DNA of 64,000 nucleotides, from assembly GCA_947854175.1 (NCBI GenBank), contig CANTYJ010000001.1, positions 1 to 64,000 on the forward strand, read 5' to 3'. A program made the translations under genes and the position numbers. Numbering within the stretch: position 1 is the first letter of the stretch; every line of letters begins with the position of its first letter. Shown here piece by piece: positions 10,674-20,393 of the stretch. The notes under the pieces were generated by a model that ran no database searches, was not told the origin of the DNA, and saw nothing but the letters and a program-made list of their open reading frames with translations. This DNA is from an uncultured Turicimonas sp. GTDB taxonomy: Bacteria; Pseudomonadota; Gammaproteobacteria; Burkholderiales; Burkholderiaceae_F.

Positions 10674-12175
10674 ATGAGAACCTCAACAGTTGCTTTAAAT
10701 ATTGACTTAAACCGCTTCCCGGAGTTAAGTGCTTATAAGAGCATCAGCGCGCAGATTCAAGAATATATCGAAACAGGCATTATTAGAGAAAAAGAGGAAT
10801 TACCAAGCATAAGAATGCTTGCTTCAACTCTCAAGACCTCCCCAGATACTGTTAAATCAGCCTATACAGATCTTCTAGACCAAGGATTTATCCAATCGGT
10901 TCCTCGTTCCGGTTAAATTGTTTCCTAGAGATTACAAATACACACTCCGGACAGAACTCCATCAATTTTTCATCAAAGCCGGCCTCGTCCATTAAGCGCA
11001 AAAGCAAGAAAAGCCGCACAATGCTTACAAAGTAACTATGCTAGAAAGCAATAATCACGGCCTTTTGATTGTTTTGTAAATGAAAAAGGTGAATTTATTT
11101 CTCCTGAATGGGTAAAAGAAGCTGTACGGATCATCAAATCGACCTGGAACCATAACAATTACAGTGATCCGTTTGGTTACCTTCCTTAGAGAAAAATTAT
11201 TTGTGACAGACTAAGGCAAACAAGAGGAATCATAACGGAACCTCATCAAATCATTATCACCTCAAGAACGGTTCAATCAGTTTCTTTGTGTACTCAAATT
11301 TTATTTAACTCCGGAGAAAGTTTCTTCCTGGAGGATCCGGGCTTACCGATATTCAGGAAAATTTTTTCTTTTAACGGTATTCAACCTACCATGATTCCCG
11401 TCGCTGAAAATGGTGCCAACCTCGACTCCGGTCTAAAGAAAGATTCCTCTGCCGGAGGAATACTGGTCACACCTTCCTGTCAATATCCAATGAGTGTTTG
11501 CTTAAACAAGAAAAGACGTGAACAAATGACTGAATGGGCACGGGTGACCGACAGCTGGATAATTGAGGATGACATTGACAGTTTGCTGACTTATGAGAAG
11601 AATCCTACTCTGCCCATTCGAAGTATGGCCGGAGCTGATCTATGTACGATATACCTTGACAGTTTCTCTTTGCTTATTTACCCGGGAATCCGGCTTGGTT
11701 TCATGGTCGTTCCGGAACAATTAGCTGAATCTTTCGCCGAAGCAAAACTACTGATGGATCGGCAATGTCCTGAAATGACCCAGGCCATGTTAACTTCATT
11801 TCTAGGTTCTACCTCTTATGAATCCCATTTACGAAAATTAATCACTCGATTAAAAAAAGGAAAACATTTCTAGAAGAACTTCTTGGTCAACACATGAAGA
11901 ATTACGGCCGAACTTTAAAATGTAATAATGGCTCGCTCCTGAGTTTTTTGTTGGAAGAGCAATATATAGATTCGGAGATCTCCTCACTTTTAGATACAAA
12001 AGGAGTCGCTGTTACTCCGATATCAAAATTTTGCGACGAAACCCCGGTTAACGGATTTGTTTTAGGATTAGGTACCTTTAAAGAGGAAGAGTTAGAAAGA
12101 ATCAAATTAACATGGGTTCTCATAGAGGTATGGAAGCCGAAGCTTCCATATATCAAGTTAATTAAGTCCGTTTAA
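10674..12175 (+). pseudogene. MocR/PdxR-type transcriptional regulator (GntR HTH fused to PLP aminotransferase domain), degraded
   Basis: N-terminal QIQEYIETGIIREKEELPSIRMLASTLKTSPDTVKSAYTDLLDQGFI (GntR); aminotransferase-like remainder; in-frame stops at 10914, 10926, 11052, 11187 and a frameshift near 11850-11873. Confidence 0.85.
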
Positions 12176-13087
12176 CTGTCCTGCATACAGGATAAACAGT
12201 CGCAAACACATCATACCGACGATAGCAGCTGAGCATCCGAAGTAGAAGCAGACTGCGGAATGAGACAGACTGCATGCCAGCGGTATAACCATGCCAATCA
12301 AAATTGCGCCCACCCAGAATACTACGGCCCAGGTACCCGATGTAAAAGCTGTAAATGCAACTTGAGCAGCTTCTGTTCCCGTAATCAAAGAGACTGCAAT
12401 CATGAAGATACACATGGCCTCTACCAGGATAATCGGGTATTCTGCAAGATGTAACTGGTGCATTTGTGGATCACCTCGGTTGGCTCCGAAGATAACAGCA
12501 ACCAGTCTGACCGCTGCTCCGCCAGCAGAGAAACCTGAGGCAACAAACAATGCAGGCAATACAGCTGTATTTATCAGCGGGAACCTTATCAGTGCTGAAA
12601 TAAGGAATCCGGTATAAGCACAGATAACGATTGCCAGAATCATAACCAGCCAGTCCAAAACTGTCCGGAAGTTGGCAAGAAAGTCAGTTAACGGTTTAAG
12701 GAATTTCAGAATCGGCAGATCTCTGAACACAACCAGTGTTAAAACAAATAACAACGGTATGTAAAAGAGCAATGCCGCCACACCGATACTCATAACGGAA
12801 GTCGGATTGTAATAAATCAGAATCCGCCAGAATTGGAATGGATCCGTTAAGTCCAAAACCAGACATACCATACCCAACAGAATAGTTACAAGACCAACGC
12901 AGGTGGCTGCTTTCATCTGAGGATTGTCGGTATGTTCTTTGTGGAAAAGATTCAAAAGAATTGCCAGGGCCACAGCGCCGCCGGAAATACCTGCCAGGAA
13001 CAGGTAAACAGCAATCGGCCACGGCCACGCAACGCTTCCTGATAATCCGGTCGTGAAATCAATGATAATGTCAGTTGTTCCGTTCAT
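12158..13087 (-). CDS. NrfD/PsrC-like polytopic quinol-interacting membrane subunit
   Basis: Multiple TM segments, WPWPIAVYLFLAGISGGAVALAILLNL start typical of NrfD family; last gene of redox operon. Confidence 0.85.
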   Translation of the reverse strand: MNGTTDIIIDFTTGLSGSVAWPWPIAVYLFLAGISGGAVALAILLNLFHKEHTDNPQMKAATCVGLVTILLGMVCLVLDLTDPFQFWRILIYYNPTSVMSIGVAALLFYIPLLFVLTLVVFRDLPILKFLKPLTDFLANFRTVLDWLVMILAIVICAYTGFLISALIRFPLINTAVLPALFVASGFSAGGAAVRLVAVIFGANRGDPQMHQLHLAEYPIILVEAMCIFMIAVSLITGTEAAQVAFTAFTSGTWAVVFWVGAILIGMVIPLACSLSHSAVCFYFGCSAAIVGMMCLRLFILYAGQLNGLN

Positions 13088-13088
13088 C

Positions 13089-13757
13089 TCACACCTCTTC
13101 TTTCATTTGTGGAATGTAACGAAGATTCGGTTTTGTTCCTAAATGAGCTCTTACACGAACAGTATCTTTGACATCCAACAGCTTATTGACATAAGAATTG
13201 GGATTATTGACGTCTCCGAACACCAGCGCATCGTAACGACAGGCTTGAACACAGGCCGGTTGTTCGCCTTTTGCCAGTTTGGTATGAAGACAGAAATCAC
13301 AATTCTCTGCAACCTTCGTTTCTTCATTGATAAAACGAACATTGTAAGGACAACCCGCAATACAGTATTTACAACCGACACATCGGGAATTGTCCATGGT
13401 AACAATGTTTGTTGCCGGATCAATGTGAGCTGCCCCTGTCGGACAAACTCGGACACACGGAGGCTCAGAACACTGCTGGCAAGAAACACGGACGTACTTA
13501 CGACTGCCGGCCGGTCCGTCAAGCGGAGACTGTCTTTCAAGAGTCATTCTTAACTGACCTTTCGGTACGTTATTTGTTTCCGAACAGGCTTCTTTGCAAG
13601 CACCGCAACCGACACATTTGTTCTGGTCAAAGACCATCACAAAACGTGGCTGGTAACCGCTGACATTGGCTGCTTGGGCTTCTTTGTCCAGAACAATTAC
13701 CGAACCGATTGCTCCGACGGCTGCGCTAGTTAAAAATTTTCTACGATCTATGGTCAT
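13089..13757 (-). CDS. Tat-signal 4Fe-4S ferredoxin-type electron transfer subunit
   Basis: RRKFLTSAAVGAIGSV leader; CVGCGACKEAC, CQQCSEPPCVRVCP, CVGCKYCIAGCPYNV, CDFC motifs. Confidence 0.92.
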   Translation of the reverse strand: MTIDRRKFLTSAAVGAIGSVIVLDKEAQAANVSGYQPRFVMVFDQNKCVGCGACKEACSETNNVPKGQLRMTLERQSPLDGPAGSRKYVRVSCQQCSEPPCVRVCPTGAAHIDPATNIVTMDNSRCVGCKYCIAGCPYNVRFINEETKVAENCDFCLHTKLAKGEQPACVQACRYDALVFGDVNNPNSYVNKLLDVKDTVRVRAHLGTKPNLRYIPQMKEEV

Positions 13758-13795
13758 AATTTTCCCCGCAACCTTCTCAGGCTGCGGACTCCCGG

Positions 13796-14875
13796 TTACT
13801 TGAGAGGATTGACTGCTTTCTTTGAAAACTCGCCTTTATCAAGAATTTCTTGAGCTTTGCGAACGTAGTTTTGTGCAGCAGCGAGACGTTGAGTCAAGTA
13901 ATTATTGGCATGTGCGCCCCAAGAACCGTCTTTTTCAATCATATCGGCAATGTTAGTTGCCAAATCAACATAAGAAAGAACCTGTGTTCTTTGGTCACGG
14001 TCCAGACGAGTTACTTCCAGAAGCTTATTGATGCGTTCTGTAGCACCGACAATTTCCTTGTAGCCGTCTTTAATCGGATTCTGCCAATTCATCAACTCAC
14101 CGTAAACCTGTTTCTGGTCCTTATATACAAGACCTTCTTCAAGTTTGGAGGTATATTGGCTGTGGCAACCTTTGCCTTCAAATACGGTCCAGTCAGCCGG
14201 TGCATTTCTGGCACAACTCCACATCAAATCGATATAGTCGTTACCATTTTCATCCTTAGCCAATACATAGCGGGAGACCTTCTTTCCGTCCATCTCAACT
14301 TCTTCTTTGACATAAGACGATTTATCAGGAGACGGATTGATCTTATACATATGGGCACGATACAAAGCAGTTGCAGCAACTTTGCTCTGGTCGTTTGTAT
14401 ATAGTTCAGGTAATGGCATATTCGGCATATGGCAAGCTATGCAATCGACTTTGCTATGAGTATCGGCATGTTTGAAAACGTCAGCCTGAACGGTATGACA
14501 GCTTTGGCAGTCCTGTTTCATCTGCGGATTGCTGATATAAGCCATCCATGAAACACCTTGAATCTGAGACTGGTCATGACATGATAAGCACCCTACTCCA
14601 CGGTTAGCATGAACACTCATAAAGTGTTGAGCTGTCTTGTCGTTGTAATTGGTTTCTGCCATAGTCCGTAATTCTTTCTTTGTGAACTGTTTGGCCTGAG
14701 AAATTTCATCAACACCGAGAGATTTCAAAAAACCGTCTACACCTTCAATTTTGAAAGGGGCGTTTTTAAGACTTTCGGGTATCGGTGCCGGAACATTATC
14801 TTTGGCATATGCCGCAGAAGACAAACCCAGGCAAGCTAATGCTGTCAGTAATAAAACGGATTTAGTATTGAACAT
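13796..14875 (-). CDS. Periplasmic multiheme c-type cytochrome (three CXXCH plus one CX15CH)
   Basis: Sec signal peptide; CLSCH, CQSCH, CIACH and CARNAPADWTVFEGKGCH. Confidence 0.88.
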   Translation of the reverse strand: MFNTKSVLLLTALACLGLSSAAYAKDNVPAPIPESLKNAPFKIEGVDGFLKSLGVDEISQAKQFTKKELRTMAETNYNDKTAQHFMSVHANRGVGCLSCHDQSQIQGVSWMAYISNPQMKQDCQSCHTVQADVFKHADTHSKVDCIACHMPNMPLPELYTNDQSKVAATALYRAHMYKINPSPDKSSYVKEEVEMDGKKVSRYVLAKDENGNDYIDLMWSCARNAPADWTVFEGKGCHSQYTSKLEEGLVYKDQKQVYGELMNWQNPIKDGYKEIVGATERINKLLEVTRLDRDQRTQVLSYVDLATNIADMIEKDGSWGAHANNYLTQRLAAAQNYVRKAQEILDKGEFSKKAVNPLK

Positions 14876-14898
14876 TTTTGACCTTTACTTTCTTTAAT

Positions 14899-15732
14899 TT
14901 AAGGATTCAGCGGTCTACTTTCCTGCTCTTCAGCCAGAAAGTCCGCAAAATCATCTTCCAAATATTTGTCTGAGTAAAAGAAGATGGTTCCTAACGAAGT
15001 TCTTGTAAATTTGATGTCTTTGTATTGCTCATTTTGTCCGATTGACTCAATCAGATCTTCCAAATGGCTTCTTTCGATATTGAAAGGATTTTCCAAAAAC
15101 ATCTGAGCAGGAACCGGTCTCGGATAGATTCTTGAATTCTCACGAATCTGATCACAAATCAGAGCCTCCTCGTCATCTTTTGCCGCAAGAAGCCTTGCGT
15201 ATGATCCGGATAGCAATGGTTTGAAGTAAAAATTCCGCTGATTTTGTGGAGTCATGACCGGATAGATGCCTAATTCCGCATCCAAAGCAGCTTCCAGGAC
15301 CTGTTCGAAATAACCCGGCAAGTCCTGTTCCAGCTGTTCGTCTGACTTCAGATCCGAAGGATGAATGTCTCCGCTCACGAGGTTACGTAACATCTCTCTG
15401 CGACTCAAAGTCTTGCGGCTCGGCCTAAGGTTCGGATGTTCAGCCTCATAAAGATCAACTTTACCTTGAGGTGTGAGCTGAATCTCGTAATCCAGTTCTT
15501 CTTTTCTGCGTAACGCTCTTTGAAGGACATCATCAACGGTTACTTCAGCTGCAGCCTGCACTTCTTCCGGAGTTGGCATTTTGGCTGTACTTAAGCGACG
15601 AAGAAACGTATCTTTGAGTTTCTCCTCATCGATAAGTTCAGTTTTTCCACTGGCATCTGCGACGATGTCAACCAGAAGAAGGACATGGCTCTTAAAACGA
15701 GGCAAATTGTAAGGATTTTCTTTTTTACTCAT
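14899..15732 (-). CDS. Uncharacterised cytoplasmic protein in AOR-family operon
   Basis: 277 aa, no signal peptide, tightly placed between AOR and cytochrome genes; position comparable to the unknown ydhW/ydhT genes of the E. coli ydh operon. Confidence 0.75.
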   Translation of the reverse strand: MSKKENPYNLPRFKSHVLLLVDIVADASGKTELIDEEKLKDTFLRRLSTAKMPTPEEVQAAAEVTVDDVLQRALRRKEELDYEIQLTPQGKVDLYEAEHPNLRPSRKTLSRREMLRNLVSGDIHPSDLKSDEQLEQDLPGYFEQVLEAALDAELGIYPVMTPQNQRNFYFKPLLSGSYARLLAAKDDEEALICDQIRENSRIYPRPVPAQMFLENPFNIERSHLEDLIESIGQNEQYKDIKFTRTSLGTIFFYSDKYLEDDFADFLAEEQESRPLNP

Positions 15733-15752
15733 GATGGAAGACTTCTAATCTG

Positions 15753-17846
15753 CTAAATAAGACCTTCTTTTTGTAAAACCGGGATTACAAAATCAAGCTG
15801 ATATGCTTTGAGAGTTTCGGTTGTCGGAACACCGGTCTCTTTGTTAAAGCCCATTTGTTCAAAGAAAATGTCAAAGCTCTTTTGGATGTCATCCGGATCC
15901 ATACGGACGGTACCTTTTGTAAACGGCTTCTTGTCCTTCGGATCGTAGTAAATCCAACCCGGAACGTGGTCGTGATCTTTTCTCATATTGGAAGAACCCA
16001 TTTGTCTCATGGTGTAGACACGCTGTAGGATCCAAGCACGGATAGCTTCACGGTCCAAATCATCGCCCGTCTTATTTACGCCGGTAACGGCGGAGAAGAC
16101 TTTGGCCTCAATATTGGGATCACCAACATACTGATTCTTTTCATCAGGACAGTATTCCCAAGGACCCATCCAAGAGCAAAGGCCAAGCATGTTATGAAGT
16201 TCTGTTCTGGCGATAACCCAAGCCAGACGTTTCATCTTGTATTCATTTACCGGAGTGTAATCACCAATCTGGTCGACTGCACTTTCGTCACCCCAAGTAA
16301 CCTTAGCAATATGCTTTTGTTCCTTGATTGGTAATCCGCTTCTTGTGAAATTAACGTGGGCATGTGCCATCGGGTCACGGTTCCACATACAATTAAGAAC
16401 GCAACCTAATTGACCGTCGTCTTCATTGGTGTGATGCTTCGGATGACCGCATGACCAGTAAAGAGTGCGTTTATCGTCGCTCCATGTCTTGAGAGGAATA
16501 CCGAAATGCTCAAGCATAACCGGTGTAGTTTCTCCCATCCATTTTCCAAACTCGCCCTGACGATAGGCAATTCTCGGGAGAAAATCCTGCATTGCGGAAG
16601 CATCGACGTCATCAATCTTCTTCCATGGAATGGAGTCATATTCTTCTTTCGGAAGAACTTTCTTCCAATGACCGTCTGTATACATGACGACCAGGTCACG
16701 CTGGATCTGACCGTAGTTACACCACAGTCCGAGTTCATCCATTAACTGACTACCAACGATAGCGATTTCAATATTTCTTTCAGGATGTTTTGCCAGATTC
16801 GGATAGAAGAAGACCGGGAACAACAATCCGCCGCAGGTTTGTTCAGTAATCGGATTGACGTTGTACTTAGCAGCTGTCTTAACATCTTTGATAACAGGAT
16901 AACAACGGATCGGGCAAGAGAAGCAACCGTTATTTCTAACATGCAAACCCCATTCCTTGTCACCAAGGAAGAATTCACCGGCGTTTGTACGGAAAGCCAT
17001 CTTAGACAAGCGGCGTGTATCCAAAGGAACATTAATCGGAGGATTAGCTGCTCCCCACTGTTTGCCGGGCATGCCTGACCAGCGGGAGTTCAATGAATGA
17101 TATTCAAACAGCGGATGAGGATAACGGGAAACAACTGTCTGAGTTAATGCACCCATCAATTCTTTATGACGGTTAATAAGTTTTTCCCAATCTTCTTTGT
17201 CGGCTGCAATGTGAATTGCCTGATCGCCGTCGATTGCAATACCTTTTAAGTTCTTGGAACCGAAGACACCGCCGACACCACCGCCGGTATGACTTTTAGC
17301 ATTAATCAAAACGGACATCGGAAGTAGATTTTCACCGGCCGGTCCGATGACAGAAACGGATGCTGTCGGGGAGGTTTCCTGACTGATGAGCTCGTGAGAG
17401 CGGCGTGTTCTTTCACCCCAGATGTGGTTTGCCGGGCGAATTTGAACATCGTCGTTATTAATGTAAATATAAACCGGCTCTTTTGCCTTGCCTTCAATAA
17501 TGACGAAATCGTATCCGGCGTATTTAATTTTTGCACCGATATCACCGCCGATGTGTGCACTACCGATCATGTGAGTCGGATAAGTGGTCGGATACATCGT
17601 TGTGATTGAAGTTCTGCCTGAGCATACAGCACCTGTACCGGTTAATGGTCCGGGAGCGATAACGAGTTTATTGGCTTCGTCAAAGGCCATGGTTTTTGGA
17701 GGAACTTCATCCCAGAAAATCTTATAACCGAGGGCTGTACCGCCAATCCAGTCTTTTTGTGTCGGAACAATTGAAACTTCACCGGTGGAAAGATTGATTC
17801 TTAATCCTTTTCCTGTCCAACCAAATCTTTTTGTTTCTACTGACAT
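15753..17846 (-). CDS. Aldehyde:ferredoxin oxidoreductase-family (YdhV-like) tungsto/molybdopterin enzyme
   Basis: KRFGWTGKGLRINLSTGEVSI...ARPTALGY-type N-terminus (GGTALGYKIFWDE), CFSCPIRC (CX2CX3C) plus later Cys; start moved from 18056 to ATG 17846 (MSVETKRFGW). Confidence 0.92.
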   Translation of the reverse strand: MSVETKRFGWTGKGLRINLSTGEVSIVPTQKDWIGGTALGYKIFWDEVPPKTMAFDEANKLVIAPGPLTGTGAVCSGRTSITTMYPTTYPTHMIGSAHIGGDIGAKIKYAGYDFVIIEGKAKEPVYIYINNDDVQIRPANHIWGERTRRSHELISQETSPTASVSVIGPAGENLLPMSVLINAKSHTGGGVGGVFGSKNLKGIAIDGDQAIHIAADKEDWEKLINRHKELMGALTQTVVSRYPHPLFEYHSLNSRWSGMPGKQWGAANPPINVPLDTRRLSKMAFRTNAGEFFLGDKEWGLHVRNNGCFSCPIRCYPVIKDVKTAAKYNVNPITEQTCGGLLFPVFFYPNLAKHPERNIEIAIVGSQLMDELGLWCNYGQIQRDLVVMYTDGHWKKVLPKEEYDSIPWKKIDDVDASAMQDFLPRIAYRQGEFGKWMGETTPVMLEHFGIPLKTWSDDKRTLYWSCGHPKHHTNEDDGQLGCVLNCMWNRDPMAHAHVNFTRSGLPIKEQKHIAKVTWGDESAVDQIGDYTPVNEYKMKRLAWVIARTELHNMLGLCSWMGPWEYCPDEKNQYVGDPNIEAKVFSAVTGVNKTGDDLDREAIRAWILQRVYTMRQMGSSNMRKDHDHVPGWIYYDPKDKKPFTKGTVRMDPDDIQKSFDIFFEQMGFNKETGVPTTETLKAYQLDFVIPVLQKEGLI

Positions 17847-17865
17847 ATTTAACCTTTCAAGAAAA

Positions 17866-18576
17866 TCATCCGTGACAAACACCGCACTGATCGTTACTGT
17901 TTTGTGGCAAGTAACCGTGTGGAACGCCTCTGGTGGGTTCTTTTGAACGATCCATCCAAGGAACATATCTGATTGCTTCTGTCGGGCAGGCTTTAACACA
18001 TTTCGGATCGCCGTTGCATAAGAAGCACTTACTGGCAACATTCTTTTCGACGTCAAAGCTCATCATGTTCCATGGGCAGGCCTTCTGGCAAAGACCGCAA
18101 CCGACGCAGATATTTTCGTCTACATAACGGGCACCGGTTTTCGGATTCACGCGGATAGCACCTTTCGGACAAGCGTTTGCACAAGGAACCGGGTGATCGC
18201 ATTGTCTGCAGGTATCCTGAATGCTCACAGGTGCAGAACCAAATGCTCCGTTGACACCGCTGACTAAAGGAGTACCTTCCGTTCCGAAGAACATGCCGCG
18301 ATTGATCTTGATTCTGGCTAATTTCGGATCTGCTTTGCCGTCGTTAAATTCTGTACAAGCCAATTCACATCTTTGGCAGCTAACACACAAACTCGGGTCA
18401 GCAATCAAAATGCCTTTCGGTGCTGAAAGAATGATATAAGGCTGGGCGCCTGTTTGAGCTCTTGCTTTGTTGATTGCAGCCATGGCAGCAACCACGGTAG
18501 AGACTTCTAAAAAACCGCGTCTGGTGATATCCAACGGTAGACGCACTTTGGTGAGTAGCTCTTTAAGTTCTAACAT
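17866..18576 (-). CDS. YdhY-like 4Fe-4S ferredoxin subunit with Tat-like leader and C-terminal CXXCH
   Basis: TRRGFLEVSTVVAAMAA leader; CVSCQRCELACTEFND, CRQCDHPVPCANACP, CVGCGLCQKACPWN, CFLC; ends QCGVCHG*. Confidence 0.88.
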   Translation of the reverse strand: MLELKELLTKVRLPLDITRRGFLEVSTVVAAMAAINKARAQTGAQPYIILSAPKGILIADPSLCVSCQRCELACTEFNDGKADPKLARIKINRGMFFGTEGTPLVSGVNGAFGSAPVSIQDTCRQCDHPVPCANACPKGAIRVNPKTGARYVDENICVGCGLCQKACPWNMMSFDVEKNVASKCFLCNGDPKCVKACPTEAIRYVPWMDRSKEPTRGVPHGYLPQNSNDQCGVCHG

Positions 18577-18976: not shown

Positions 18977-18990
18977 TTGATTAATAACAA
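18977..18990. promoter_or_regulatory. FNR/CRP-like site
   Basis: TTGATTAATAACAA, one mismatch from TTGATNNNNATCAA, upstream of an anaerobic-type redox operon. Confidence 0.35.
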
Positions 18991-19255: not shown

Positions 19256-20393
19256 TAGTAAACGACAAAATTAATTGTGAATAATTCATAATACTCTTAT
19301 ACAGGAGAGTGTTATGCCTAAACGAGTCTATATATCTGATGTTAACGAGCTTCTGAAAGAAGGAAAAAAGTTAATCGAAAGTGAGCCAAATGGTAAATTC
19401 ATTCACAAGGTTGGGATAGTTAATCTTGTTCTTTCCGGACTTCCGGTTTCAACCATTAGCAAACACATTGGAGAGAGCGTAAACACAATTACTTTGTGGG
19501 TTAAGAAAGTTGACGAGCAGGGCTTTACAAGTCTTCTGCCAAAAAGCCATTCTGGTCGACCCCCTAAGCTCGATCTAAAACAACGTGAGAAGATTCGAAC
19601 TGCACTTTTAAGTCCTCCTGAGAATCATGGATACAGGGTGTGGGACGGTCCGGCTCTTTCTAATTTTATCGAAAAGACTTTTACGGTTAAGATGAGTACT
19701 CGGCAATGTCAGCGCTTATTCCATGAACTTGGTTTTTCGCTCCAACGCCCTCAAGTACTCCCATGCAAGAACCCTGATTCTCAGGAGAGGATTGAGTTTA
19801 AAAAAACTCCAATCGGTAGAAAAAGATCCAAACCTTGTTAGAGCTTTTCAGGATGAGCTTCATTTCAAAATTACTACTTCGGAAATGCGGCAATGCCACC
19901 TAAGGGCAGTAAGCCTAGAATTTCATCTTCGCCATCCCAGCATAAAGTCGCATATAGCGGTTTTGTATTTCCAGGCACCGGAGAACTGATAATCAATAAG
20001 TCAGAAGTTTTTAACCATGAAACTGTTATAGCTTCTTTACGGGAATTCTTAAGAAAAGTATACCTTCCAGAGAATCGAAAAGTTGCCTTAATTCGCGATA
20101 ATGCACCTTGGCACAAAAAGGTCTTCAGACGAATTGAAACTGAAGATCAGCCTGAGTATGCAGATATTCGTGAAAAACTCACGCTCATACGCCTACCACC
20201 TTATTCTCCGGATTTGAATCCAATTGAGCAGTGTTGGCGGGTAACTCGAAGAGAAGTAGCGCATAATCGCTACTTCTCCGATTTACAGACTATGGAAAGA
20301 GCGTTGGACAAATATTTTAAGGAGTTTAAGTTGCCGAATGAAAAATTAAGAAGTCTCTGCACCTTTTTTCACAAATAATTTTGCCGCTTACTA
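19256..20393 (+). mobile_element. IS630-family insertion sequence, about 1.14 kb, flanked by TA
   Basis: TIRs TAGTAAACGACAAAATTAATTGTGAA / TAGTAAGCGGCAAAATTATTTGTGAA (rev comp right end); TA on both sides; HTH plus DDE transposase. Confidence 0.88.
19314..20378 (+). pseudogene. IS630 transposase, split across frames
   Basis: N-terminal HTH ORF 19314-19841, middle in +1 frame (FQDELHF), C-terminal DDE part 19893-20378 (RDNAPWHKK, PPYSPDLNPIEQCW). Confidence 0.8.

Follow-up and report, generated by a model that had tools for sequence, protein, structure and literature searches.

E. coli and many gut bacteria carry genes for YdhV-type enzymes of the AOR family, which have no known substrate, and the locus studied here raises the question of what such an enzyme does in an operon with a small multiheme cytochrome and an NrfD-type membrane subunit. 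Our study addressed this in a window of 64,000 nt (the whole stretch of DNA analysed) from a genome belonging to the genus of Turicimonas muris YL45, Sutterellaceae. Six ORFs were located on the minus strand, running from 18576 to 12158 of the window in the order YdhY-YdhV-YdhW-cytochrome-Fe-S-NrfD-type, with intergenic gaps of 19, 20, 23, 38 and 1 nt, in that order; the six genes form a tight operon. This agrees with the first-pass annotation of this DNA, which had placed a six-gene set at 12158-18576 in the same order and had read it as a Ydh-type AOR operon in which a multiheme cytochrome is paired with an NrfD-type subunit for quinone, a combination that the ORFs and family models confirmed.

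A gene-neighbourhood survey, as suggested in that annotation, found the six-gene set to recur in several Sutterellaceae genera. Comparison with T. muris gave pN/pS values of 0.10-0.30 for the six operon genes, which points to purifying selection on each of them but is indicative only, because pS was near saturation. The recurrence of the set in several genera, together with signs of purifying selection in all six genes, argues that it did not arise by chance. Upstream of the operon, the search for FNR-like sites returned one match with 1 mismatch (18977-18990), overall no better than chance, and promoter and terminator scans at the operon returned no more than shuffles did. An IS630-type transposase in two overlapping frames lies upstream of the operon (window 19314-20378, plus strand), and a probable pseudogene, a GntR/aminotransferase (MocR-like) regulator broken into three or more fragments, was seen just beyond the operon end (window 10674-12175, plus strand).

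The Ydh core

By family models, gene order and alignment, the first three genes are assigned to a Ydh core (YdhY, YdhV and YdhW), with the following features.

17866..18576, minus strand: YdhY/WorS-like 4x[4Fe-4S] subunit with Tat signal and C-terminal CXXCH (NF007382, E 1.9e-48)
18502..18525, minus strand: twin-arginine motif TRRGFLEV of the YdhY-like subunit (sequence and alignment)
17872..17886, minus strand: C-terminal CXXCH (CGVCH) of the YdhY-like subunit, candidate c-type heme site (alignment)
15753..17846, minus strand: YdhV/WorL-like enzyme of the AOR family, 697 aa, with a putative Mo/W-bis-pterin site and no signal peptide (family models, alignment)
16902..16925, minus strand: CX2CX3C [4Fe-4S] ligands Cys308/311/315 of YdhV, the fourth being Cys557 (alignment)
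16833..16835, minus strand: Cys338 codon of YdhV, equivalent of E. coli YdhV Cys336, extra metal ligand (alignment; role, PMC12096430)
14899..15732, minus strand: YdhW-like protein, 277 aa, without signal peptide, winged-helix domains predicted (NF007411 match confined to the C-terminal part, E 2.5e-24)
15388..15405, minus strand: SRREML motif inside the long YdhW (alignment)

The AOR gene has its best start at ATG 17846. Its product matched AFOR_N at 203.9 bits and AFOR_C at 122.9 bits, both exceeding the cut-off, and the YdhV model NF007354 at 820 bits against a curated cut-off of 868, far above every other model. The order YdhY-YdhV-YdhW, with a Tat-type Fe-S subunit next, is that of E. coli ydhYVWXUT, whose YdhV (Mo-bis-MPT) is 40 % identical and has the same four Fe-S cysteines and one extra metal-ligand cysteine. 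The equivalent Cys338 was invariant in nine aligned YdhV sequences. In AOR sensu stricto the metal has no protein ligand, the Cys336-type ligand is reported to be common only to YdhV and the benzoyl-CoA reductase BamB, and the second-shell residues of aldehyde oxidoreductases are reported missing in YdhV (PMC12096430). Thus the AOR label holds for the family domains, although the extra metal-ligand cysteine is a feature that classical aldehyde oxidoreductases lack, and identity with a classical aldehyde oxidoreductase is weakened. BamB, of class II benzoyl-CoA reductase, is likewise an AOR-family protein with a cysteine metal ligand and catalyses a reduction, but it sits in a cytoplasmic electron-bifurcating complex without an Mcc-type module. 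ModA is encoded in the genome studied here.

The 277-aa protein that the first-pass annotation had left as unknown is YdhW by its NF007411 match. These YdhW-like proteins are 22-25 % identical to E. coli YdhW, which is 62 aa shorter and lacks the N-terminal region and the internal SRR motif. The motif, in the form [ST]RRxxL/M, falls in a low-confidence linker of the long YdhW proteins. The 11 Sutterellaceae copies and a Deltaproteobacteria MAG locus (L028) all have it, and it was not seen in E. coli, L030 and G528, whose YdhW is short. Structural modelling (pLDDT 74) predicted a pair of winged-helix-like domains; a whole-fold PDB search gave no significant match, returning only single winged-helix domains (2mh2, probability 0.95; ScpA, 0.92). 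YdhW is probably a cytoplasmic assembly or quality-control factor.

The twin-arginine signal was clear in all complete YdhY copies, and YdhV, which has no signal of its own, is probably exported with YdhY via Tat. A wholly cytoplasmic enzyme, with the periplasm reached by none but the products of the last three genes and with no contact between the cytochrome and YdhY or YdhV, would fit the missing signal peptides of YdhV and YdhW. We regard it as improbable, as it is at odds with the YdhY signal, with a CXXCH tail on YdhY that could take a c-heme only outside the cytoplasm, and with the periplasmic location assigned to Class V WORs on the same ground in the main text of PMC13328260. This tail was found in all 11 aligned Sutterellaceae copies and in the distant relatives L028 and L030, and was missing from YdhY of E. 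coli, G643 and G528 in the same alignment. YdhY therefore differs from its E. coli counterpart and, to judge from the conserved motif, probably binds one c-heme. It would be unusual for a ferredoxin-like subunit exported by Tat to bear a c-type heme, but such a heme would account for the passage of electrons from the cytochrome.

A module derived from sulfite respiration

The remaining three genes encode the putative link to the membrane.

13796..14875, minus strand: tetraheme cytochrome corresponding to MccA hemes 5-8, Sec signal (alignment, PDB search, trees)
14576..14590, minus strand: CXXCH 1 (CLSCH), MccA heme 5 (alignment)
14495..14509, minus strand: CXXCH 2 (CQSCH), MccA heme 6 (alignment)
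14429..14443, minus strand: CXXCH 3 (CIACH), MccA heme 7 (alignment)
14162..14215, minus strand: CX15CH (CARNAPADWTVFEGKGCH), MccA heme 8, atypical (alignment; motif in PMC6976685, PMC7096707)
13089..13757, minus strand: MccC-type 4x[4Fe-4S] subunit, Tat signal DRRKFLT (family models, tree, identities)
12158..13087, minus strand: MccD-type NrfD-family quinone subunit (NrfD PF03916, E 1e-61; tree, identities)

The earlier description of a tetraheme-type cytochrome was borne out by four heme sites, three CXXCH and one CX15CH, the latter a motif known from MccA/SirA (PMC6976685, PMC7096707). The sole PDB match of the cytochrome was Wolinella MccA (4RKM, residues 414-701, E 2.3e-55), and by alignment the protein is the C-terminal half of octaheme MccA. 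Eight cysteines and eight histidines were invariant across 35 tetraheme and octaheme sequences, as many as four bis-His c-hemes require; CX16CH was read from the alignment in place of CX15CH in G719, G721 and G726. Two cysteines (chain positions 411 and 507), which we take to be the MccA copper ligands (published as Cys399/Cys495, with an agreeing spacing of 96), were kept in 23/23 octaheme sequences and replaced by a gap or a non-cysteine residue in 12/12 tetraheme copies. Hemes 1-4 were absent from the alignment of the same 12 copies, including heme 2, the active site of MccA (PMC7096707). A role for the cytochrome as a sulfite reductase is rejected on account of the missing heme 2 and copper-ligand positions.

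All tetraheme forms fell in a single clade of the cytochrome tree (support 100/100), which adjoined the MccA of Turicimonas/Parasutterella (92/92) within Sutterellaceae MccA; the tree was rooted on Wolinella MccA as single outgroup and has long branches, so this placement is moderate. The simplest history consistent with the tree is that the catalytic half of MccA was lost once, within the Sutterellaceae. The cytochrome is a clear example of how a multiheme enzyme can lose its catalytic part and be pared back to a wire.

Its two partners pointed the same way. The Fe-S subunit, whose twin-arginine motif agrees with the earlier claim of a second Tat Fe-S protein, was 65 % identical to MccC of the same genome, compared to 49 % for E. 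coli NrfC and 40 % for YdhX, and for the NrfD-family subunit the identities were 65 % to MccD of this genome and 37 % to NrfD of E. coli. In the trees both subunits were intermixed with MccC/MccD and apart from NrfC/NrfD/YdhX, with low inner support in the NrfD tree. By these comparisons the cytochrome/Fe-S/NrfD trio derives from the Mcc/Sir sulfite-respiration system. NrfABCD nitrite reductase likewise combines a multiheme cytochrome with an NrfC/NrfD-type pair, but the operon lacks NrfA, and a Nrf origin of its last three genes is rejected on the trees and identities. The system shares with MccACD/SirACD of Wolinella and Shewanella the CX15CH heme, three CXXCH, the MccC-/MccD-type partners and their relative order; in contrast, the catalytic N-terminal half, FKBP and nos genes are missing and YdhV is coupled instead. 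Where E. coli ydh continues with YdhX, YdhU (membrane cytochrome-like) and YdhT, this operon has the MccA half, MccC and MccD, and neither YdhU nor YdhT was found in this operon, which has a cytochrome c and an NrfD-type subunit in their place. The proposal that NrfD and a multiheme cytochrome link the enzyme to quinone thus stood as regards an NrfD-type quinone subunit; what changed is that the trio is specifically Mcc/Sir and its MccA is cut to the non-catalytic half.

A complete sulfite-respiration locus is present elsewhere in the same genome (contig 22, L021 635-11855), comprising octaheme MccA, an FKBP isomerase, a TPR protein, MccC, MccD, NosL, NosD, an ABC pair and an NrfE-like heme lyase. 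This MccA is a full-length match (E 2.8e-221) and retains hemes 1-8 and both cysteines. The two forms keep different company: an AOR gene adjoins 12/12 of the tetraheme forms found, octaheme loci are on separate contigs or at a distance from AOR operons, and no AOR gene was found beside octaheme MccA in the six loci looked at in detail. No mcc, FKBP or nosL/D/F/Y genes were found beside the AOR operons; the absence of FKBP and nos genes is in keeping with loss of the copper site. The complete mcc locus and the MccA ancestry of the cytochrome would suit an accessory of sulfite metabolism, in which the complex swaps electrons with periplasmic full-length MccA and acts on a sulfite-related sulfur compound. 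However, we consider this unlikely, since the catalytic heme and copper-ligand positions are gone in every tetraheme copy, the AOR operons lack adjoining mcc or copper genes, and G719 carries the operon with no octaheme MccA match.

Direction of electron flow

Taken with the Mcc ancestry, the Ydh core suggests a membrane-linked periplasmic respiratory oxidoreductase in which the core took over the quinol-oxidizing arm of a sulfite-respiration system. The core would comprise YdhV, with a Mo- or W-bis-pterin site, and YdhY, with four [4Fe-4S] and probably one c-heme, and the captured arm an MccD-like quinone subunit, an MccC-like Fe-S subunit and MccA reduced to its electron-transfer half. We infer that electrons would pass from menaquinol through the MccD-like and MccC-like subunits and the tetraheme cytochrome to YdhY (heme tail, then Fe-S), YdhV and a periplasmic acceptor. 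PMC8076601 describes MccACD as a quinol:sulfite oxidoreductase, and the captured arm therefore most likely still oxidizes menaquinol, in which case the enzyme should reduce a periplasmic substrate. E. coli ydhYVWXUT is FNR-activated and tabulated with the nrf and frd operons (PMC3688515). Given the descent of the Mcc module and this regulation in E. coli, flow from quinol to substrate is the most likely direction by analogy, and a menaquinol-fed terminal reductase working through the Mcc-derived arm is, in our judgement, rather probable.

NrfD-family modules can run in either direction, and the complex could instead act as a dehydrogenase, with YdhV oxidizing an aldehyde or another donor in the periplasm and the electrons passing through YdhY, the tetraheme cytochrome and the MccCD-like pair to menaquinone, for use by other reductases. 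Aldehyde oxidation by most characterized AOR/WOR enzymes, as set out in the main text of PMC13328260, and the ability of NrfD-type modules such as QrcD to act as quinone reductases speak for this reading. It is the less probable of the two directions, with only a limited chance, as the ancestor of the module is a quinol-oxidizing system, the YdhV-type cysteine ligand is present and AOR second-shell residues are reported missing (PMC12096430), and the E. coli homologue is FNR-activated (PMC3688515). Furthermore, C. somerae WOR41L, the one Class V enzyme screened according to the main text of PMC13328260, was inactive on 46 aldehydes, although this assay used a partially purified large subunit only. 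The grafting of the Ydh core onto a quinol-oxidizing sulfite module argues for terminal reductases in the YdhV family and narrows the search for a substrate to acceptors.

The first-pass annotation had called the respiratory system undescribed, which is too strong. The main text of PMC13328260 (June 2026) places Parasutterella and Sutterella enzymes among the membrane-linked Class V WORs (clade 41), which likewise have WorL, a Tat-WorS and membrane subunits, are described with transmembrane and cytochrome-containing subunits, and have no known role. The term NrfD is absent from that main text, and its Class V section mentions neither MccA nor a truncation; its supplementary figures may draw the operon. 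Our literature search found no paper tying the system to MccA or describing a sulfite-reductase origin. Relative to the main text of that paper, the Class V grouping, including Parasutterella and Sutterella, was already known and the sulfite-reductase-derived wiring, which is unexpected, appears to be new.

Duplication and distribution of the operon

A second complete six-gene operon was found in the same genome beside moeA (contig 33, L007 5973-14360), and two operons per genome were present in three species: that of the genome studied here, T. muris and Parasutterella excrementihominis. G719, G721 and G726 each carried one complete set with an upstream moeA-like gene, and parts of the set were found on short contigs in G684 and G699. 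Several genes of the G722 set were interrupted; at this locus (L070) the interruptions affect moeA, ydhV and the NrfD gene, and represent either a decaying copy or sequencing error. In the cytochrome tree the two paralogues split before the genera do, which suggests two long-kept functions.

Together, these data lead us to propose tentatively, as a plausible reading that falls somewhat short of probable, a new anaerobic respiration in gut Sutterellaceae, in which a Tat-exported YdhV-type Mo/W enzyme, as terminal reductase for a gut metabolite, would be fed by menaquinol through a sulfite-reductase-derived wire and an Fe-S subunit with a c-heme, the two paralogous operons serving two different acceptors. 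The cultured strains T. muris YL45 and P. excrementihominis carry both operons, which makes the question testable.

AOR matches at E<=0.001 were found in 14/67 genomes of the family, nine of which (13 loci) had full-length YdhV-type matches. Across the phylum only 3/399 genomes had a full-length YdhV-type match, and the enzyme of the operon is therefore rare there. A contig scan with the AOR alignment returned nine loci, with thin sampling outside Pseudomonadota. In the Deltaproteobacteria MAG (L028, 8210-15397) HmcB (over the cut-off) and an HmcC-like protein (just under the cut-off) come after the Y-V-W core, and the core seems to be plugged into whichever membrane module is available. An FdhD-like gene, named by eye, lies upstream of the core at this locus.
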